A stretch of DNA of 64,000 nucleotides, from NCBI GenBank assembly GCA_020853975.1, contig JADYXW010000045.1, forward strand, positions 62,001-126,000. Direction: 5' to 3'. The translations under genes were made by a program, and so were the position numbers. Shown one piece after another: positions 22,816-35,507 of this stretch. How positions within the stretch are numbered: position 1 is the first letter of the stretch; every line of letters starts with the position of its first letter. Source of the stretch: Phycisphaerales bacterium. GTDB taxonomy: Bacteria > Planctomycetota > Phycisphaerae > Phycisphaerales > UBA1924. The notes beneath the pieces are model-generated. The model ran no database searches and had not been told where the DNA came from. It was given only the letters and a program-made list of their open reading frames with translations.

Positions 22816-25800
22816 ATGCGCAGTCCCCTGCTCGCTCTGATCGTGGCGGCGACGCCCGCCCTGGCCGACGTCCGACTCCCCGCAGTGATCTCCTCGGGGA
22901 TGGTGCTCCAGCAGTCCTCCAAGGTCCCGCTCTGGGGCTGGGCAACGCCAGGGGAGGAAGTGCGAGTGATGGCGCCGTGGCTCGGGGCGCCCGTGGCGGC
23001 CTCCGCGGACAAGAGCGGTCGCTGGTCGGTCACGCTCGACACCCCCGCCGCGAAGGACTCTCCGGCGGCGGTCACCATCACGATTGAGGGAAAGAACACA
23101 CTCTCCTTGAACGACGTGCTGCTGGGGGAGGTGTGGCTTGCTTCCGGCCAGAGCAACATGGAGTGGCCCTTGTCCGCGTCCGATGGTGCGTCCGAGGCGA
23201 TCGCCGGCGCCAACCACCCGCAGATCCGGCTGTTCAACGTGCGGAACGAGGTCGCCGCCAGGCCCAAGAGCGACTGCACCAGCGAGGCGGGCTGGACACC
23301 GTGCACCTCACAATCGGTCGCGGGGTTCTCCGCAGTCGCGTACTACTTCGCGAGAGACCTGCACGCGGCGCTGGGGGTGCCGGTGGGTGTGATCGAGGCG
23401 GACTGGGGGGGCACCCCGGTGCAGGCGTGGACAAGCGCCGCGGGGCTCGCCAAGTTCCCGGAGTTCGCGGACGCGCTCGCCTACATGGACGCGCTGGACC
23501 CGGACCCGAATGTGCGTGCCGCAAAGGCCGCGGCGTTCGCCGGGGAGTGGTGGGACAACCTCGACACCCGCCGCGACGGCGCGGGCAAGGGATGGATGAG
23601 GCCAGACTTCGACGATTCCTCGTGGAAGGTGATGACGCTCCCCGCGACGCTTGGGCCCGATGGCCTGGACAAGTTCGACGGCGTGGTCTACTTCCGCCGC
23701 ACCGTCACGCTGGCCGGCACGCCCGGCGCGGGCACGATCGAGCTCGGTCCGATCGACGATCGTGACGACGTGTGGGTCAACGGCACGCGCGTGGGGGGTC
23801 TGCGCGACGACGGGCAGTGGAGCAGGCCCAGGTCCTACGAGGTGCCCGCGGGCGTGCTCAAGGAGGGCCCGAACACCATCGCGGTGCGCATGGTCGACAC
23901 CTCGGGTCCGGGCGGGATCAACGGGAAGCCGGAGCAGATGGTGCTGCGAAGCGCAGGGCACTCGGTCTCGCTCGCGGGGGAGTGGAAGCACCGCAGGGGG
24001 TCCGCGATGTCGGCCCTGCCCGCGATCGGTCAGGCGATGAACGTCGGGCCCGGCAGCCCGTCGGCGCTCTACAACGCGATGATCCGCCCTGTGATGCCCT
24101 TCGGTATCCGGGGCGCCATCTGGTACCAGGGCGAGTCAAACCGCGGGCAGAACTACGCCGAGTACTTTCCCGCGATGATCCGACAGTGGCGTGAGGAGTG
24201 GGGCCGGGGCGAGTTCCCCTTCCTGTTCGTGCAGATCGCGCCGTTTGCCTACGGCAACGACCGGGGTGAAACGGCCCTTCTGCGCGAGGCGCAGGCCGCC
24301 ACCTGGCGGACGGTTCCCACCACGGGCATGGCCGTCACCATGGACATCGGCGACCCCAAGGACATCCACCCGCGCAACAAGAAGGATGTGGGCGAAAGGC
24401 TCGCGCGGTTTGCCAAGGCCGGGACCTACAGGGTCGAGGGCGTGGTGGCCTCCGGCCCCGTGTATTCAGGGCTGCGCACGCGCGACTCAGACCTCTTCGT
24501 GACCTTCGACCTCCGCGGGGCCAAGACGCTGCGCCCGGCCGGAGACCTTTCGGGCTGGGCCGTCGCCGGGGCGGACATGAAGTTCTACGACGCGGTCGCG
24601 ACGATCACCGCGCCCGACACCGTGCGGGTCACGTGCCCGAGCGTCGCGGCGCCCGTCGCGGTGCGCTACGGCTGGTGCAACGCCTGCGAGCCGAATCTCG
24701 CCGGTGACGCTGGCCTGCCCGCTGTCCCCTTCCGTTCCGACGCCTGGGACAAGCCCGCGGGTGGCTGGCCCACCCCAGAGGACGGGGGCAAGACGGGGCA
24801 CCTCACGAGCGAGGCCGGGTTTGCGCCGCTGTTCGACGGCAGGAGCCTGAGTGGCTGGGTCAACGTCAATACCGCCCCCTCGACCTTCCGCGCAGAAGCC
24901 GGCATGATCCGCTGCTCGGGCGAGCCCACGGGCGTGATCCGCACCGCGAAGCAGTACCAGAACTTCGTCCTGGAGCTGGAGTGGAGGCACCTCTCCGAGC
25001 AGGGCAACGCCGGGCTCTTTGTGTGGTCCGACGGCCTGTGCGCCAAGGGCGTGCCCTTCACACGCAGCGTGGAGGTGCAGGTGATGGTCGGCTCCGAAGC
25101 GGACTGGTACACCTCGGATGGCGACGTGTTCCCCATCCACGGCGCGAGCATGACGCCCCTCAACCCCAGGCCCAAGGGCGGGCAGCGGTCCTATCCCACA
25201 GAGAAGCGCATGAAGCCCAGCCCGGAGTGGAACCACTACCGCGTGACCTGCGTGGACGGCGAGATCTCGCTCGCGGTCAACGGCAAGGTGGTGACGCAGG
25301 GCAAGGACGTCTCGCTCCGCAAGGGCTACATCTGCCTGGAGTCCGAGGGCACGCCGATCGACTTCCGCAACATCATTATCAAGGAGCTCCCCGGGAAGGA
25401 CATTCCCCCGGAGCAGGTCGCGAACGCCGACGAGGGCTTCGTGCCACTCTTCACCGGCGTGGACTTCGCGGGCTGGAAGTTTGAAAAAGCCCACGAGGGG
25501 CACTTCGTCGCGGGAGGCAACGTCATCCGCCTGGATGGCCAGGGCCCAGAGCTCTGGACGGCGAACGCGTACAAGGACTTTGTGCTCGTCGCCGACTGGC
25601 GCTGGACGCGAAAGCCAACGCCCAGCCAGAGGCCCATTATCCTGCCCAGCGGCGAGGAGAAGAAGGACGCTGATGGCAAGTCCCTGACCGAGGAGATTCA
25701 GGACGCCGGCGATTCGGGCCTCTACCTGCGAGGGTCCTCCAAGTCGCAGGTCAACGCCTGGTGCTGGGGCATCGGCTCGGGCGAGGTCTATGGCTATCGC

Positions 25801-26049
25801 ACCGACGCCTCCATGGCTCCCGAGGTGCGAGCGGGCGTCACGCCCAAGGTGGTCGCGGACGCGCCGATCGGTCAGTGGAACCGCTTCGTCATCACCATGC
25901 GGGGCGATCGCCTGACCGTCGTGCTCAACGGCAAGACAGTGATCGAGAACGCGCAGTTGCCCGGCGTCGCCTCCGAGGGGCCCATCGCCCTGCAGCAGCA
26001 CGGCGACCCGATCGAGTTCACGAACCTGTACATCAAGGAACTGAAGTAG
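22816..26049 (+). CDS. Sialate O-acetylesterase-like SGNH enzyme with two C-terminal DUF1080 (3-keto-disaccharide hydrolase-like) domains
   Basis: LASGQSNMEWPL, GAIWYQGESN; then FAPLFDGRSLSGW...VEVQVM and FVPLFTGVDFAGWKFEK... Confidence 0.88.
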   Translation: MRSPLLALIVAATPALADVRLPAVISSGMVLQQSSKVPLWGWATPGEEVRVMAPWLGAPVAASADKSGRWSVTLDTPAAKDSPAAVTITIEGKNTLSLNDVLLGEVWLASGQSNMEWPLSASDGASEAIAGANHPQIRLFNVRNEVAARPKSDCTSEAGWTPCTSQSVAGFSAVAYYFARDLHAALGVPVGVIEADWGGTPVQAWTSAAGLAKFPEFADALAYMDALDPDPNVRAAKAAAFAGEWWDNLDTRRDGAGKGWMRPDFDDSSWKVMTLPATLGPDGLDKFDGVVYFRRTVTLAGTPGAGTIELGPIDDRDDVWVNGTRVGGLRDDGQWSRPRSYEVPAGVLKEGPNTIAVRMVDTSGPGGINGKPEQMVLRSAGHSVSLAGEWKHRRGSAMSALPAIGQAMNVGPGSPSALYNAMIRPVMPFGIRGAIWYQGESNRGQNYAEYFPAMIRQWREEWGRGEFPFLFVQIAPFAYGNDRGETALLREAQAATWRTVPTTGMAVTMDIGDPKDIHPRNKKDVGERLARFAKAGTYRVEGVVASGPVYSGLRTRDSDLFVTFDLRGAKTLRPAGDLSGWAVAGADMKFYDAVATITAPDTVRVTCPSVAAPVAVRYGWCNACEPNLAGDAGLPAVPFRSDAWDKPAGGWPTPEDGGKTGHLTSEAGFAPLFDGRSLSGWVNVNTAPSTFRAEAGMIRCSGEPTGVIRTAKQYQNFVLELEWRHLSEQGNAGLFVWSDGLCAKGVPFTRSVEVQVMVGSEADWYTSDGDVFPIHGASMTPLNPRPKGGQRSYPTEKRMKPSPEWNHYRVTCVDGEISLAVNGKVVTQGKDVSLRKGYICLESEGTPIDFRNIIIKELPGKDIPPEQVANADEGFVPLFTGVDFAGWKFEKAHEGHFVAGGNVIRLDGQGPELWTANAYKDFVLVADWRWTRKPTPSQRPIILPSGEEKKDADGKSLTEEIQDAGDSGLYLRGSSKSQVNAWCWGIGSGEVYGYRTDASMAPEVRAGVTPKVVADAPIGQWNRFVITMRGDRLTVVLNGKTVIENAQLPGVASEGPIALQQHGDPIEFTNLYIKELK

Positions 26050-26805: not shown

Positions 26806-26908
26806 TGGGGCTCCAACGGTTGGTGGTGTGGGGAGGTGGCGACCTTGAGTGTACGGGTTTGGACGCCCGCGGGGTCGCACGGTTCCGAATGCGATATGCT
26901 GGGCCGAG

Positions 26909-28069
26909 ATGCGAGGGCTGCCCACCACCATCGGCGTTCGGTTCCCGCACGGCCCTGGCCGCGAGTGTGACGTGGTCGTGGGGGAGGGTGTGATGGCCGA
27001 TCTGGGGCCGCGTGTCGCGGGGCTTCCGGGAGCCAGTCGGTGCTTCCTGGTCGCGGATTCAGGCCTCCCCCCGGAGGTCGTCGATCGCGTCGAGGCGGCC
27101 CTGCGCGGCGCCGGGTGCGAACCCTCCACCCGGGTCGTTCACGCGGGCGAAGACCATAAGACCTGGCAGGTCGCGGGCGAACTGCTGGGAGACATGGCGG
27201 CCCTTGGGCTTGAACGCCGTCATCCGGTCGTGGCGCTGGGAGGAGGGGTGGTGGGCGACATAGCGGGGTTCGTGGCGTCCGCGTACCGCCGGGGTGTGCC
27301 GATCGTGCAATGCCCCACGACCCTGCTCGGGATGGTTGACGCGAGCGTCGGGGGCAAGGCCGGCGTGAACCTCCCGGGGCCGGCCGGCGCGGGCGCGCTC
27401 AAAAACATGGCGGGGGCGTTCCACCAGCCGGTGTTCGTGCTCGCGGACGTCGAGGTCCTGGAGTCGCTGCCCGAGAGGCATCTTCGCTCGGGCCTCGCCG
27501 AGTGCATCAAGCACGCGATGCTCTGCGACAGTGCGCCCAGGCGTGACCCCGGCCTGCTCGAGGCCACCCGTGCCGCCCTCCTCGCGTGGAAAGGCCGTCG
27601 TCCCGCGGGGGAGGCACTCGCGGCACTCATCGCGCGGAGCGTCGCGCTCAAGGCGGGCGTGGTCGAGGAGGACGAGCGAGAGGAGAAGCCGGCCGGGGGC
27701 CGGGCGATCCTCAATCTTGGCCACACCTTCGGGCATGCGGTGGAGACCGCTCCGGGCTCCACGCTGCTGCACGGCGAGGCGGTGGGCCTGGGCCTGATCG
27801 CCGCGGCGACGTCGGCGGCCTCTCTCGGGCTTGTCGGCGCCGAGTGCGAGCGACTGACGCGCGAGTTGGTCGAGCACGCCGGTCTGCCGCTCGCGATCAA
27901 CGGACTCTCGCCGGCGACCGTCCGGGCCCGCATGGCTCTCGATAAGAAGGTGGTGGGCGGAGGTCTGAGGCTCGTGCTGCCCTGCGGCCCGGGTCGGGTC
28001 ACGCTGGTCGAGAAGCCGCCGGAAGAAGCGGTGCTGGCCGGCATCGCCGCGATGCTCGCACCACGGTGA
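26909..28069 (+). CDS. aroB: 3-dehydroquinate synthase
   Basis: VALGGGVVGDIAGFVASAYRRGVPIVQCPTTLLGMVDASVGGKAGVN; LNLGHTFGHAVE. Confidence 0.96.
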   Translation: MRGLPTTIGVRFPHGPGRECDVVVGEGVMADLGPRVAGLPGASRCFLVADSGLPPEVVDRVEAALRGAGCEPSTRVVHAGEDHKTWQVAGELLGDMAALGLERRHPVVALGGGVVGDIAGFVASAYRRGVPIVQCPTTLLGMVDASVGGKAGVNLPGPAGAGALKNMAGAFHQPVFVLADVEVLESLPERHLRSGLAECIKHAMLCDSAPRRDPGLLEATRAALLAWKGRRPAGEALAALIARSVALKAGVVEEDEREEKPAGGRAILNLGHTFGHAVETAPGSTLLHGEAVGLGLIAAATSAASLGLVGAECERLTRELVEHAGLPLAINGLSPATVRARMALDKKVVGGGLRLVLPCGPGRVTLVEKPPEEAVLAGIAAMLAPR

Positions 28070-28213: not shown

Positions 28214-29650
28214 ATGCGGACCATCGCCATCATCAATCAGAAGGGTGGATGCGGGAAGACGACCACCGCCATCAACCTCGCCTCGCAGCTCGCCGCGCAG
28301 GGCCGGAGAACGCTCCTCATCGACATGGACCCGCAGAGCCATTGCGCCGCGGGGCTTGGCGTTCCCGAGTCGCGGATCGAGATGGACATCGGCGATGCGA
28401 TGCTCGCGGTCGGGCCCTCGGGCGTGGACGCGCCCCGGCTGCTGTGGCGCGTGGCCCGGAACCTGGACCTGGCCCCCAGCCGCACGAAGCTGGCGGGCCT
28501 GGAGGCCAGCAGGGGCGGGCTGGCGGACTTGCTGGACCGTGAGAAGCGTCTGGCGGCGGTGGTGTCGCAGTTCAAGCACGAGTACGACGTGGTGTGCGTG
28601 GACTGCCCGCCCACGATCGGCCTGCTGACGTACAACGCGCTCGCGTGCGCGGACCTGGTCCTGATCCCCGTTGAAACAAGCTATTTCGCGCTGCAGGGTG
28701 CGACCAAGCAGGTGAGCACGGTCCGGACGCTTTCGAGGCGTCTTGGCGTGCAACTGCCCGTCTGGATCCTGCCCACGATCCACGAGGCACAGAGCCCGGT
28801 CGCGGAGGACCTGCTGGGCGAGTTGCAGAGGCGCTTCAAGGACCGCGTGGCCCCGGTGGTGATCAGGCGGGACCTGAAGCTGCGCGAGGCCGCGAGCTTC
28901 GGACAGCCCGTGAGGGAATACGCTCCGGACTCCGCGGGCACTGCCGACCACGCGACGCTCGCGAAGTGGCTGGGCGAGCTGCTGGTGGGCCCGCTGGACG
29001 CGGGCGCCGACACGGGCGAGGCGGACGTGACGGTGCCACCGGTTACCGCGAGGTTTCTGGCGGAAAAGAGCCCGGACCGCGCCGCCGACAAGCAGAGCGT
29101 CGAATGCATCGAGGCGAAGGCAGCCCCCAACCGGGCCGAGGATGTTGCCCGCAGAGCGCAGGAGTTCCTGCGTCGCGTGGCGCTGGGCAAGGCGGGGACG
29201 GGCGTGCAGCCCTTCGCGCCCGTGACCGCGCTGACGCCTGAGGGCCAGGCCGCCGAGGCGCCCGTGCCCATGGTCATGCCCACGGGTGCACTGAGGCTCG
29301 TTGAGGCCGAGGTCAAGCCGGTGACGGCACCCGGCACCGCCAGGCTGCTGGGGGCGCGGGAGACGAACCAGGGCGTGCTCTTCGTGCAGCCCCTGGTCAG
29401 CGGTCAGGTCATCTCCATCGCAGGGTCGTTCAACAACTGGTCCGCGACGTCGCACGTGATGAAGCGCAACGTCGCCCTGGGCGTGCACGAGCTCTGCCTC
29501 AGGCTGCCCCCCGGCCGGTTTGTCTATCGCCTTGTGATCGACGGGCAGTGGACGGCGGACCCGTACAACAACGAGTGCGAGCCCAACCCCTTCGGCGGGA
29601 CCAACAGCGTCTGCCGTGTCGGCGAAGGAGCGGTCGTGCAGTCCGCCTGA
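28214..29650 (+). CDS. ParA-family ATPase with C-terminal glycogen-binding (CBM48/AMPK-beta-like) domain
   Basis: MRTIAIINQKGGCGKTTTAINLA (deviant Walker A), LIDMDPQSH, VDCPPTIGLLTYNAL; C-term ISIAGSFNNWSATSHVMKRN..GVHELCLRLPPGRFVYRLVIDGQWTADP. Confidence 0.88.
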   Translation: MRTIAIINQKGGCGKTTTAINLASQLAAQGRRTLLIDMDPQSHCAAGLGVPESRIEMDIGDAMLAVGPSGVDAPRLLWRVARNLDLAPSRTKLAGLEASRGGLADLLDREKRLAAVVSQFKHEYDVVCVDCPPTIGLLTYNALACADLVLIPVETSYFALQGATKQVSTVRTLSRRLGVQLPVWILPTIHEAQSPVAEDLLGELQRRFKDRVAPVVIRRDLKLREAASFGQPVREYAPDSAGTADHATLAKWLGELLVGPLDAGADTGEADVTVPPVTARFLAEKSPDRAADKQSVECIEAKAAPNRAEDVARRAQEFLRRVALGKAGTGVQPFAPVTALTPEGQAAEAPVPMVMPTGALRLVEAEVKPVTAPGTARLLGARETNQGVLFVQPLVSGQVISIAGSFNNWSATSHVMKRNVALGVHELCLRLPPGRFVYRLVIDGQWTADPYNNECEPNPFGGTNSVCRVGEGAVVQSA

Positions 29651-29665
29651 GGAGAGAGACAGCGC

Positions 29666-30955
29666 ATGCACACTCGGCCCACCGGCCCCTTGGGCCTCCA
29701 CGATTGCGGCGTGCTCCCGGAGGCAGCCCTCGACGCGCACGACGCGCTCGCCGACCTCTTCCTCTCCGAGACCGCGCCGGCGCTCAGGCTCGCCGGAGAG
29801 GCCCCGCTCTCGGTGCGCCCAGCGCACGCGAGAATCGAGGGGCTCGTGCTCGGGCACCTGCCCGTGCTGGCTGCGGCGTGGGTCGTGCAGTACGCGAAGC
29901 ACGCGGCGGACGAATCGAATAGCACGGTGGGGCTTGTGCGCGTGCAGGGGGGGCAGGTCTGGGTAGACCTTGTGCAGCCCCGAGGCGCCACGCCACGGAA
30001 CTCCAGCCGCATCGGCGCCCCCGGGGTCGCGACCGACCTGCGGGGCGCCATCTCGGTGGCCGCCCGCGAGGCCGGCCGCTGGCTGGTGCGCGTCGATGAG
30101 ATCGACGAGCCGGAGCTGCTCACGACCCCGGGTGTGGGCGCCGTGACGCTCCTTACCGGCGCCGACATGCCCGCTATCGTCGCGTCGTACCGGACGATCA
30201 AGAACCTCTGCGGCGAGGAGCCGGTTGCGATGGACGCGGTTTCCCGCGTCAGGCTCGCCATCATGGGCGCAGACGACGCCGCGGCGGCGGATGCCGAGGC
30301 TCGCATCGCCAAGGCGTCGCGGACATTCCTGGGCGGCTCGATCGCTTGCGCCGCCCGCGTGGGAAAGATCGCCCCGTCCAGCACGCGAGTGGTCTTTCGC
30401 GGGCAGGGCGCACCGACGCTCGCGGAACTCGTGTCCCTGATCGAGAGCGAGGCCGAGCCCGGACAGCCGGTCCAGGCGATCGAGGCACCTACCCCGGTCG
30501 TGGCGGCGTCCGCTCCGGTCGTGCCGATCGCGGGCGGCGACACCGAGCGGGCGTCTGCTCCTGCCCCTGCCGGCGCCACCGGCGCGGAGCAGGCAGAGAT
30601 CGCCGTGCTCATCGGGCTGCGGCCCCTTGGGGCCGCGTGCCCGGTGGCGCCGGGCGTGGTCCTTGCGCGCGGGAGCGGGGGCGAACTGCATCTGGTGACG
30701 CACGCGACCGAGAAGGGGGCGGACCGCGCCGTGGGCGGTCTGCTCGCCGCGGCGGCGTGGGCGGAGCAGCATCGGACCCTGCTCGAGGCTGCCTTCCCCG
30801 GCGGAACCGCCTGCGAGTCGGGCCCTGCGCTCCACGTGGTGGTGGATGACGCCCGCGGCGCCCGAGGGCTCCTGGACACGGGGGTGCGGGTGCACCTTGC
30901 GGTCGAGGCCTCGCTCGACGGCCGGGCCGTCCGGGTCGCCAGAGAGCTCAACTAG
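29666..30955 (+). CDS. Uncharacterised protein; possible degenerate MinD/ParA-like partner
   Basis: Starts 16 bp after the ParA-CBM gene; central [58 protein letters not shown] resembles the C-terminal half of FlhG/MinD ATPases; no P-loop. Confidence 0.55.
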
Positions 30956-33380: not shown

Positions 33381-33785
33381 TCACGGGCAGCCGCCGCCGC
33401 CGATGGCGTTGATGAGCGCGAGGACGTCGTCCTGATCGGCGTTGCCGTCGAGGTTGAAGTCCGGGTCGATTCCGGAGGGGTTGTCGCCGCCGCCGATGAC
33501 GTTGATCAGATACAGCACGTCGTCCTGGTCAACGTTGCCGTCCTGGTTGAGGTCCGGGTCGCAGGGCGGGGCGGGGGTGGAGGCGCCCACCCAGAACCCT
33601 CCCGAGAGGGTGTACGTGCCGCCGCTCATGACGCCGGCGTCGGGCTGGCCGATGGTGCCGCTGAGCGTGTAGGTCCCGCCGGTGGAAGTGCCGCCTCCGC
33701 CGTCGATGGTGTACCAGTCGATGGTGGGCTGGGCGAGCGCGGGCGAGGCCGCTGCGGTGAGTGTGATCAGTGCGAAACGCTTCAT
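33381..33785 (-). CDS. Small secreted protein with C-terminal dockerin-like Ca-binding repeats
   Basis: Signal peptide; DLNQDGNVDQDDVLYLINVIGG and DFNLDGNADQDDVLALINAIGG. Confidence 0.8.
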   Translation of the reverse strand: MKRFALITLTAAASPALAQPTIDWYTIDGGGGTSTGGTYTLSGTIGQPDAGVMSGGTYTLSGGFWVGASTPAPPCDPDLNQDGNVDQDDVLYLINVIGGGDNPSGIDPDFNLDGNADQDDVLALINAIGGGGCP

Positions 33786-33944: not shown

Positions 33945-35336
33945 TTACTGGCAGTCTGCGCCGGCGACGCGGTTGAGGAGATACAGGACGTCGTCCTGGT
34001 CCCGGTTGCCGTCGTTGTTGTAGTCGGGGTTCATGCCGTTGCGGCTGGTGCCCGCGCCGATGTCGGAGCGGAGGGCCTCGACGTCATCCTGGTCGACGTT
34101 GCCGTCGCCGTTGTAGTCGGGGTCCTGGCAGTCGCAGCCGGAGGGGACGTCGATGGCGACATCGACGCTGCTGTCGGTCTTGAAGAGGTTGAGGGTTCCG
34201 GTGCCGGCCACGGGCGGGCGGCTGGAATCAAAGCGGAAGGAGTACGTCGTGCCCCAGCGGAGGGCGTTGGCGTTGGGGTTCTGCGGGAACGACTCGGTGC
34301 AGAGCCACTGCTGACCGGTGCTGGTCTTGCTGGCAGCCCAGTCGATGCTGTTGAAGGGCTCGCCGCTGTGGTAGGCCACGTCGTTGAAGCCGACGTTTGT
34401 GACGTTGATGCAGGAGGAGAAGGAGTCGGCGGGGAAGTTCACGATGAAGCCGGCGACGGCGCGGTCGGAGTTGATGTTGTGGATGGCGTACTCGTAGTGG
34501 TACATACCGCCGGCGATGGGGGTGACCTTGTACGCGAGCTCGACCTTGCCCTCGCCGGGGATGTCGATGACGCGGTAGGTTACGCCGGTCTCGATGGTAC
34601 CCCAGCCGCGGATCGCGCCCTGCGTGCGCTGCGTGGTGGACCCGGTGGCGTTCGTAAAGGTGTAGTTGGGGTTGGTTCCGCCCAGCGTCAGGCGGCGGTA
34701 CGACATGTTGTTGTCGTGCTTGCCGGCCTCGGCGTCGTCGGCGGCGACATAATGGCCCTCGCAGAAGTACACGGCGCTGGGGTTGAGGGCCGGGTCAAGA
34801 TCGGTGGTACGGACCTGGATGCGCCGGGCGATGGACCCGCTGTAGGATCGGCTGGTGAAGGGGTAGGGGAAGTAGCCGGACCAGACGTTGACCTCGTCGC
34901 GCGGGCCCAGGCCCGACTGCTGGCCGTTGAGGCTCGCGCCGTAGGGATCGGAGCAGTGCACGCCCAGGGCGCTGCCGTTGGGGTTGGCGACGCAGTTGGA
35001 GTAGCAGACGGTGCCCTGGAGCGCGGTGAAGCCGTGCTTCAGGTGGCCGCCGCCGATCTGATCAAACTGGCGGGCACCGTTAATGGTTCGAACGCGGAAG
35101 ATGCTCTGGCCGATGACGGGGTGCCGGTTGGTGGACGCGATCCACTGGAGGGGCGCGGTGCCGGCGTTGCAGGAGGTCGTCCCGACGGAGAACGCCCGGT
35201 AGGTCACGCCGTTGATGGTCTGGGCCGTGTAGGACGAGACGCCGGTCAGGTCGCCGACGATGACGTCGGGCTGAGCGAACGCGCTGCCGCAGGCGAGAAC
35301 CAGACCGCACACCGAGATGAGCTTCGAGTGTTTCAC
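33945..35336 (-). CDS. Secreted protein with C-terminal dockerin-like Ca-binding repeats
   Basis: GTG start, VKHSKLISVCGLVLACGSAFAQ leader; DYNGDGNVDQDDVEALRSDIGAG and DYNNDGNRDQDDVLYLLNRVAG. Confidence 0.8.
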   Translation of the reverse strand: MKHSKLISVCGLVLACGSAFAQPDVIVGDLTGVSSYTAQTINGVTYRAFSVGTTSCNAGTAPLQWIASTNRHPVIGQSIFRVRTINGARQFDQIGGGHLKHGFTALQGTVCYSNCVANPNGSALGVHCSDPYGASLNGQQSGLGPRDEVNVWSGYFPYPFTSRSYSGSIARRIQVRTTDLDPALNPSAVYFCEGHYVAADDAEAGKHDNNMSYRRLTLGGTNPNYTFTNATGSTTQRTQGAIRGWGTIETGVTYRVIDIPGEGKVELAYKVTPIAGGMYHYEYAIHNINSDRAVAGFIVNFPADSFSSCINVTNVGFNDVAYHSGEPFNSIDWAASKTSTGQQWLCTESFPQNPNANALRWGTTYSFRFDSSRPPVAGTGTLNLFKTDSSVDVAIDVPSGCDCQDPDYNGDGNVDQDDVEALRSDIGAGTSRNGMNPDYNNDGNRDQDDVLYLLNRVAGADCQ

Positions 35337-35507
35337 GCTGAACCCTTCACTATGAACTGAGCGACAAGTTGAATCCGCCAGACCGTCCGGCGGGGCCATG
35401 TTACCAAACCTTTCCCGTCTGCCAAGGGGAATCCAATCGAGTTTTACGCGCCGGGTTCCGCGACGAGTTACCGGTGGTTACCGAAACGCACCGACTTTGT
35501 CCCGGAT

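Follow-up and report, generated by a model that had tools for sequence, protein, structure and literature searches.

In a window of 64,000 nucleotides, the whole stretch of DNA analyzed here, two adjacent genes encode a ParA-type ATPase that ends in a carbohydrate-binding domain (P0001, the product of a gene that we call parA-CBM) and a second protein, P0002 (Table 1). The host genome is 3.1 Mb in size and 95% complete. The parA-CBM gene begins with an ATG at 28214, in agreement with the N-terminal pattern of its homologues, MRTIA(I/V)xNQKGGCGKTT, and a stop codon closes it at 29650; the coordinates, frame, and start given in a preliminary description of this DNA were therefore correct. On the upstream side, aroB was present at 24 of the first 35 loci inspected and at further loci once more of the flank was seen, and it also accompanies gene copies that lack the carbohydrate-binding domain (CBM). 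Apart from aroB and the P0002 gene, no conserved neighbors were found near the parA-CBM gene, neither glycogen genes nor genes for any other cargo.

Table 1. Features of the parA-CBM locus, with positions in the window
Feature	Position	Strand	Remarks
aroB (3-dehydroquinate synthase)	26849..28069	+	Pfam DHQ_synthase, E 8e-39; conserved upstream neighbor
parA-CBM gene	28214..29650	+	ParA/Soj ATPase, linker, AMPK-beta-type carbohydrate-binding domain; 478 aa (product P0001)
ATPase domain, residues 1-256	28214..28981	+	Deviant Walker A QKGGCGKTT, D37/D39, Walker B D130
Disordered Ala/Pro-rich linker, residues 257-378 (~120 aa)	28982..29347	+	pLDDT mostly <50
AMPK-beta/CBM48-type domain, residues 379-470	29348..29623	+	PF16561, 1z0n match, pLDDT >90
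W409 codon (= AMPK-beta1 W100)	29438..29440	+	W in 52/55 CBM-bearing relatives; 1z0n alignment
R439 codon (= AMPK-beta1 K126)	29528..29530	+	R in 54/55 CBM-bearing relatives
W446 codon (= AMPK-beta1 W133)	29549..29551	+	W in 50/55 CBM-bearing relatives
N464 codon (= AMPK-beta1 N150)	29603..29605	+	N or D in 43/55 CBM-bearing relatives
P0002 gene	29666..30955	+	429 aa; starts 15 nt downstream of parA-CBM
P0002 N-terminal acidic amphipathic helix, residues 19-33	29720..29764	+	Motif DALADLFL
P0002 middle domain, residues 54-265	29825..30460	+	Putative FlhG/MinD-like Rossmann fold without P-loop; pLDDT ~90
P0002 C-terminal alpha/beta domain, residues 305-429	30578..30952	+	Usually ends LN; dN/dS 0.13

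The ATPase domain of P0001 is a member of the ParA/Soj deviant Walker A family. It matched AAA_31 (E 3e-43) and CbiA (3e-18) in Pfam and, among PDB sequences, ParA 8ray (E 1e-44) along with the Soj proteins 6iub and 1wcv, and in Foldseek comparisons its model aligned with Soj/ParA chains at TM scores of 0.85 to 0.93 (normalized to the target). The signature lysine K10 and residues K15, D37, D39, and D130 are invariant across 29 homologues, and the intact ParA core claimed in the preliminary description was thus borne out. A basic DNA-contact strip (R218, R219, K222, and R224) is present in P0001 and, according to column counts, partly conserved among the homologues. P0001 shares its catalytic core, fold, and basic strip with the Soj/ParA partition ATPases (8ray, Thermus 1wcv and 2bek, and H. 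pylori 6iub) but differs from them in carrying a C-terminal CBM on a long linker, in having no adjacent ParB, and in having a non-ParB partner of its own. ATP-dependent dimerization and binding to nucleoid DNA are predicted from its sequence.

Median identity is 62% in the ATPase domain, 22% in the linker, and 52% in the CBM. The linker includes a short predicted helix (residues 307 to 323) with the motif RAEDVARRAQ; the idea that this motif tracks the occurrence of P0002 was dropped, the pattern not being clean. The preliminary description had assigned a CBM48/AMPK-beta-like fold to the C terminus, and several lines of evidence upheld the assignment. Residues 397 to 470 matched the AMPK1_CBM family PF16561 at 37.7 bits (E 2.4e-9; 41.4 bits in a second search), for which the curated cut-off is 26.8 bits, and the score against Pfam CBM_48 was slightly below cut-off. 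The AlphaFold2 model of the domain is all beta, with pLDDT values of 91 to 97 for blocks 381 to 470. The best solved relative found by phmmer was AMPK-beta1 (1z0n, whose ligand is beta-cyclodextrin), which was matched at an E value of 1e-7 with GSFNNWS and DGQWTxDP aligned, and the family profile matched AMPK-beta2 (2f15) at 4e-12.

The sugar-binding site of the AMPK-beta domain could be followed into P0001 residue by residue. In AMPK-beta1 numbering, the glycogen-contact site comprises W100, K126, W133, and N150, and the alignments placed these opposite W409, R439 (a conservative change), W446, and N464 of P0001. The AMPK-beta1 substitutions W100G and K126Q abolish glycogen binding, and W133L weakens it (PMC6274970). 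Both features on which the preliminary description had staked its reading of this domain, an E-set fold and the aromatic residues of the site, are hence present. P0001 and AMPK-beta proteins share the domain family and the W, K/R, W, N contacts, but P0001 has R in place of K126, and its domain is fused to a ParA ATPase rather than belonging to a kinase subunit or a glucan enzyme. The same site, with K or R at the position of residue 439, is common to most bacterial PF16561 domains of other proteins, which shows that the fused copies kept a working-looking family site and not a special adaptation. Sugar binding by the P0001 CBM is predicted on these grounds.

The fusion is widespread and is maintained across the order. 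A ParA match was obtained in 61/61 related genomes searched, although only a weak one in G031, from whose assembly the parA-CBM gene is probably missing. A CBM is recognizable on the ParA orthologue in 54 of the 60 relatives other than G031; it is lost in five and reduced to a ruined remnant in G012, and in G023 a contig end interrupts the gene. The preliminary description had proposed a search for the same architecture elsewhere in the phylum, and beyond the relatives it recurs in other families of Phycisphaerae (G112, G189, G203, G247, G288, and G307) and in one genome of another class (G113). In a comparison of the host genome with G002, dN/dS was lowest in the ATPase domain (0.05), followed by the CBM (0.10) and the linker (0.15), and the fusion is under purifying selection. 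An assembly chimera or a decaying fusion was ruled out by these ratios and by the presence of the fusion in nearly all relatives. Two highly divergent, long-branch ParA copies were seen, one in G041 (L109), where the frame spans 719 aa and the CBM is eroded, and one in G021 (L098) that groups away from its own family; replacement or transfer is possible in both. A further locus (L036:4259-6139) encodes a 626-aa ParA-CBM with a much expanded linker, adjoining a 604-aa P0002.

The preliminary description did not mention P0002, which probably makes up half of the system. Its gene lay downstream on the same strand in 30/30 of the relatives' loci first examined, with a 4-nt overlap in five. In a wider survey it was found in 12/244 genomes of the phylum, each time beside a ParA of the parA-CBM type, a count that may miss weaker relatives; one such weaker relative adjoins the ParA-CBM of G112. 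P0002 represents a partner family that matched nothing in Pfam, NCBIfam, PHROGs, PADLOC, or the PDB sequences, and membership in a known family was rejected on that basis. The AlphaFold2 model has a mean pLDDT of 79. The N terminus is predicted to be helical and in most cases carries a net negative charge (-2 to -10), and the strict DALADLFL motif occurs in 20/32 called P0002 N termini. The middle domain carries the motifs GHLPV..W.xQYA and LLTGAD..AxVxxYRTIKNL, and GHLPVxxxxWxxQYA stands where the P-loop KGGxGKT would be expected. In Foldseek, P0002 matched FlhG 4rz2 (E 1.6e-5; TM 0.42 to 0.44, a match that sequence comparison did not reproduce), FleN, and, more weakly, TadZ 3fkq (E 0.011). 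The middle domain may thus resemble these MinD-like, partly atypical ATPases in fold, but P0002 differs from them: it lacks a P-loop, shares only about 12% identity, has an additional domain at the C terminus, and does not match them at the sequence level. A profile comparison with the ParA family was not significant; P0002 as a diverged copy of ParA was therefore rejected, and the term pseudo-MinD describes a putative likeness of fold.

The CBM of the ParA is unrecognizable or ruined in six lineages, at least four of which retain P0002; in G021, G029, G042, and G054, the P0002 kept beside the CBM-less ParA includes the N-terminal helix. The ATPase pair therefore works without the CBM; the core consists of the ATPase together with P0002, and the CBM is an add-on. 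P0002 would be a dedicated partner of the P0001 ATPase.

We searched for the enzymes of glycogen metabolism as a guide to the ligand. The host genome encodes a glycogen synthase of the GT3 type (C43, L113; E 1e-179) and, on C52, a GT35 glucan phosphorylase, both away from parA-CBM; neither a GT5-type GlgA nor a GlgB scored over threshold, and a secreted-looking GH13 protein was left out of cytoplasmic glucan metabolism. Among the relatives, a GT5 GlgA was found in 1/61, and no GlgB was found in the genus. An organism without glycogen, as the GT5 and GlgB searches had implied, was a view overturned by the GT3 search, which was positive in 37/61 genomes, the host genome included. Glycogen synthesis in the group rests on eukaryote-type GT3 synthases, and GT3 synthases were already known from the PVC group (PMC11046441).

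The integrity of the sugar site (W409, R/K439, W446, and N/D464) was scored in 60 genomes and compared with the presence of a GT3 or GT5 synthase, the site residues and the gene set having been fixed in advance of reading the remaining genomes. An intact site occurred together with a synthase in 32 genomes and without one in 10; for an eroded or lost site, the numbers were 5 with and 13 without (Fisher p 0.001), counts to which draft genomes add noise. The association is suggestive. With one genome per genus, p was 0.025, and with permutation within families it was 0.2. A correlated-evolution likelihood test on the ParA tree gave p 0.08, with site loss faster where a synthase is absent; values of 0.01 to 0.02 were reached only after post hoc removal of two aberrant long-branch genomes. 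Scored simply as present or absent, the CBM showed no association with synthase genes (p 0.65), and no significant association with site integrity was seen when phosphorylase, GH13, or any-GlgB definitions were used. The analysis is partly post hoc, since the association appeared only once site integrity was scored. In family f2, G046 alone has a synthase, and G046 alone has an intact site. The lineages from which the sugar site has disappeared mostly have no glycogen synthase and amount to a natural experiment. The signal supports, without proving, an alpha-glucan as the ligand of the P0001 CBM, and P0001 is probably an alpha-glucan-directed variant of ParA.

The preliminary description had proposed that P0001 positions or partitions glycogen or couples carbon status to spatial organization, and we infer a role of this kind. 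The reading that we prefer, and hold tentatively, is that of a ParA-type spatial-organization ATPase with a built-in ligand module, serving either the placement and sharing of alpha-glucan or the switching of the ATPase. The N-terminal domain of P0001 would dimerize on ATP and bind the nucleoid nonspecifically, the C-terminal CBM would bind alpha-glucan (glycogen or maltodextrin) from its flexible tether of about 120 residues, and P0002 would either regulate the ATPase or join it to other cell structures. An ATPase layer tied in this way to alpha-glucan bodies could place them along the nucleoid or share them between daughter cells; in the alternative outcome, glucan binding would switch the P0001 ATPase. 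We favor either recruitment to alpha-glucan bodies or glucan-dependent switching, between which the sequence does not distinguish. A more specific claim, namely, a dedicated system for actively positioning glycogen bodies or partitioning them equally by means of a ParA with its own glycogen-binding domain and a pseudo-MinD-like partner, seems rather doubtful. Several observations speak against a role in glycogen positioning or in coupling to carbon status: the lack of synteny with glycogen genes, the ten genomes with an intact site in which no synthase was detected, the five in which the site is gone and a synthase is present (G012, G019, G021, G041, and G048), and the loss of the CBM from lineages in which the other parts of the module persist.

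In E. coli, glycogen gathers at the old pole and is inherited passively (PMC12706056), so that an active glycogen-positioning system would be a first. We found no precedent in the open-licence literature for a ParA fused to CBM48, for a ParA associated with glycogen granules, or for active positioning of glycogen. ParA-type ATPases are responsible for the positioning of chromosomes and plasmids, of carboxysomes and chemotaxis arrays, and of division sites, and to our knowledge the link to the cargo in the described systems is always made by the partner protein. A conserved glycogen-binding fusion on the ATPase itself would add a storage polymer to this list or, alternatively, would show a direct coupling of spatial organization to carbon status. 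In known cargo-positioning systems, the ATPase coats the nucleoid and the partner links the cargo via a positively charged N terminus (PMC10241942). The McdAB carboxysome-type systems likewise pair a ParA with an unrelated, linked partner, and the cargo of P0001 may similarly be a carbon-storage body. However, the partner links the cargo there, whereas here the ATPase carries the carbohydrate-binding module and the N terminus of P0002 is acidic and predicted to be helical, rather than positive and disordered; the layout therefore differs from that of known ParA systems. Cargo genes, a mark of McdAB-type loci, do not lie near parA-CBM. Another point of comparison is offered by the PTST1-type starch-targeting proteins of plants, in which a CBM48 domain brings another protein to an alpha-glucan body; they resemble P0001 in having a CBM48-type domain on a recruiting protein but are plant proteins without an ATPase.

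The CBM might instead be a sensor of glucan or of a metabolite and not a hook for cargo, switching the ATPase, and with it P0002, so that chromosome segregation or division would follow carbon status. The AMPK-beta CBM is a textbook regulatory glucan-binding domain (PMC6274970), the dispensability of the CBM in lineages that keep the ATPase and P0002 is what would be expected of a regulatory add-on, and the evidence from the sugar site (W409, R439, W446, N464, and the synthase association) serves this explanation equally. The long, flexible tether, however, is no less suited to recruitment than to allostery, and no target of regulation was identified. On balance, we regard sensing as somewhat unlikely.

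It is unlikely that the E-set domain binds a protein (P0002 or a synthase, for example) or a sugar other than glucan, with the module positioning some other cargo. E-set domains can act as protein-binding modules, 18 CBM-bearing genomes have no GT3, GT5, or GlgB, and two CBM-bearing genomes, G013 and G036, are without all five of the alpha-glucan enzyme families tested. Exactly those two genomes, however, have lost N464 (to I and T), and the aromatic pair W409/W446 is nearly invariant. P0002, for its part, is an unlikely ligand of the CBM because it persists beside CBM-less ParAs.

Could P0001 belong to the ParAs that act on the chromosome together with an orphan ParB? The only ParB over threshold in the genome (G000:C15:113890-114411, L116) has the canonical N-terminal motif LGRGLNSLL and lies beside no ParA match, unlike the parB adjacent to parA in a ParABS locus. 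A generic Soj-like ParA on contig C33 (G000:C33:27705, L112) is flanked by a glycosyltransferase-4 gene and a sigma-54 response regulator, and neither it nor its homologues in ten other genomes had a ParB-like gene alongside. The preliminary description was right that no parB adjoins parA-CBM, the next gene being that for P0002, but its argument from this against chromosomal parAB carries little weight: since the ParB is next to no ParA and the C33 ParA likewise has no parB neighbor, adjacency discriminates little and cannot exclude a chromosomal role. Such a role is nonetheless very unlikely for P0001, which has its own strictly linked non-ParB partner in a genome with a separate Soj-like ParA of the type that is widespread in the phylum. 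A third ParA-like family (NQKGGVGKTTTAVHLA ... DLDPSAGATKHLG), represented in the host genome at G000:C51:5492-6010 (L148) and elsewhere by L142-L147, recurs in relatives.

In a BcsQ-like reading, P0001 would regulate the synthesis or export of a polysaccharide, with a ParA/MinD protein paired with a pseudo-NTPase-containing partner as in BcsQ-BcsE. Such a role is suggested by a Pfam CBP_BcsQ match (E 4e-17), by BcsQ among the structural matches, and by the putative nucleotide fold of P0002 without a P-loop, but it is highly improbable, as Soj/ParA proteins match far better, the BcsQ equivalog cut-off was missed (93.9 of 157.85 bits), and no bcs or exopolysaccharide genes lie nearby. A defense system was rejected, the matches being weak and of the generic P-loop kind.

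Elsewhere in the window, positions 22816-26049 encode a secreted protein of 1077 aa with a sialate O-acetylesterase-type domain (SASA) and 3-keto-disaccharide hydrolase domains. Two genes on the minus strand, at 33381-33785 and 33945-35399, encode secreted proteins ending in dockerin-like repeats (DxNxDGNVDQDDVxxLxN).
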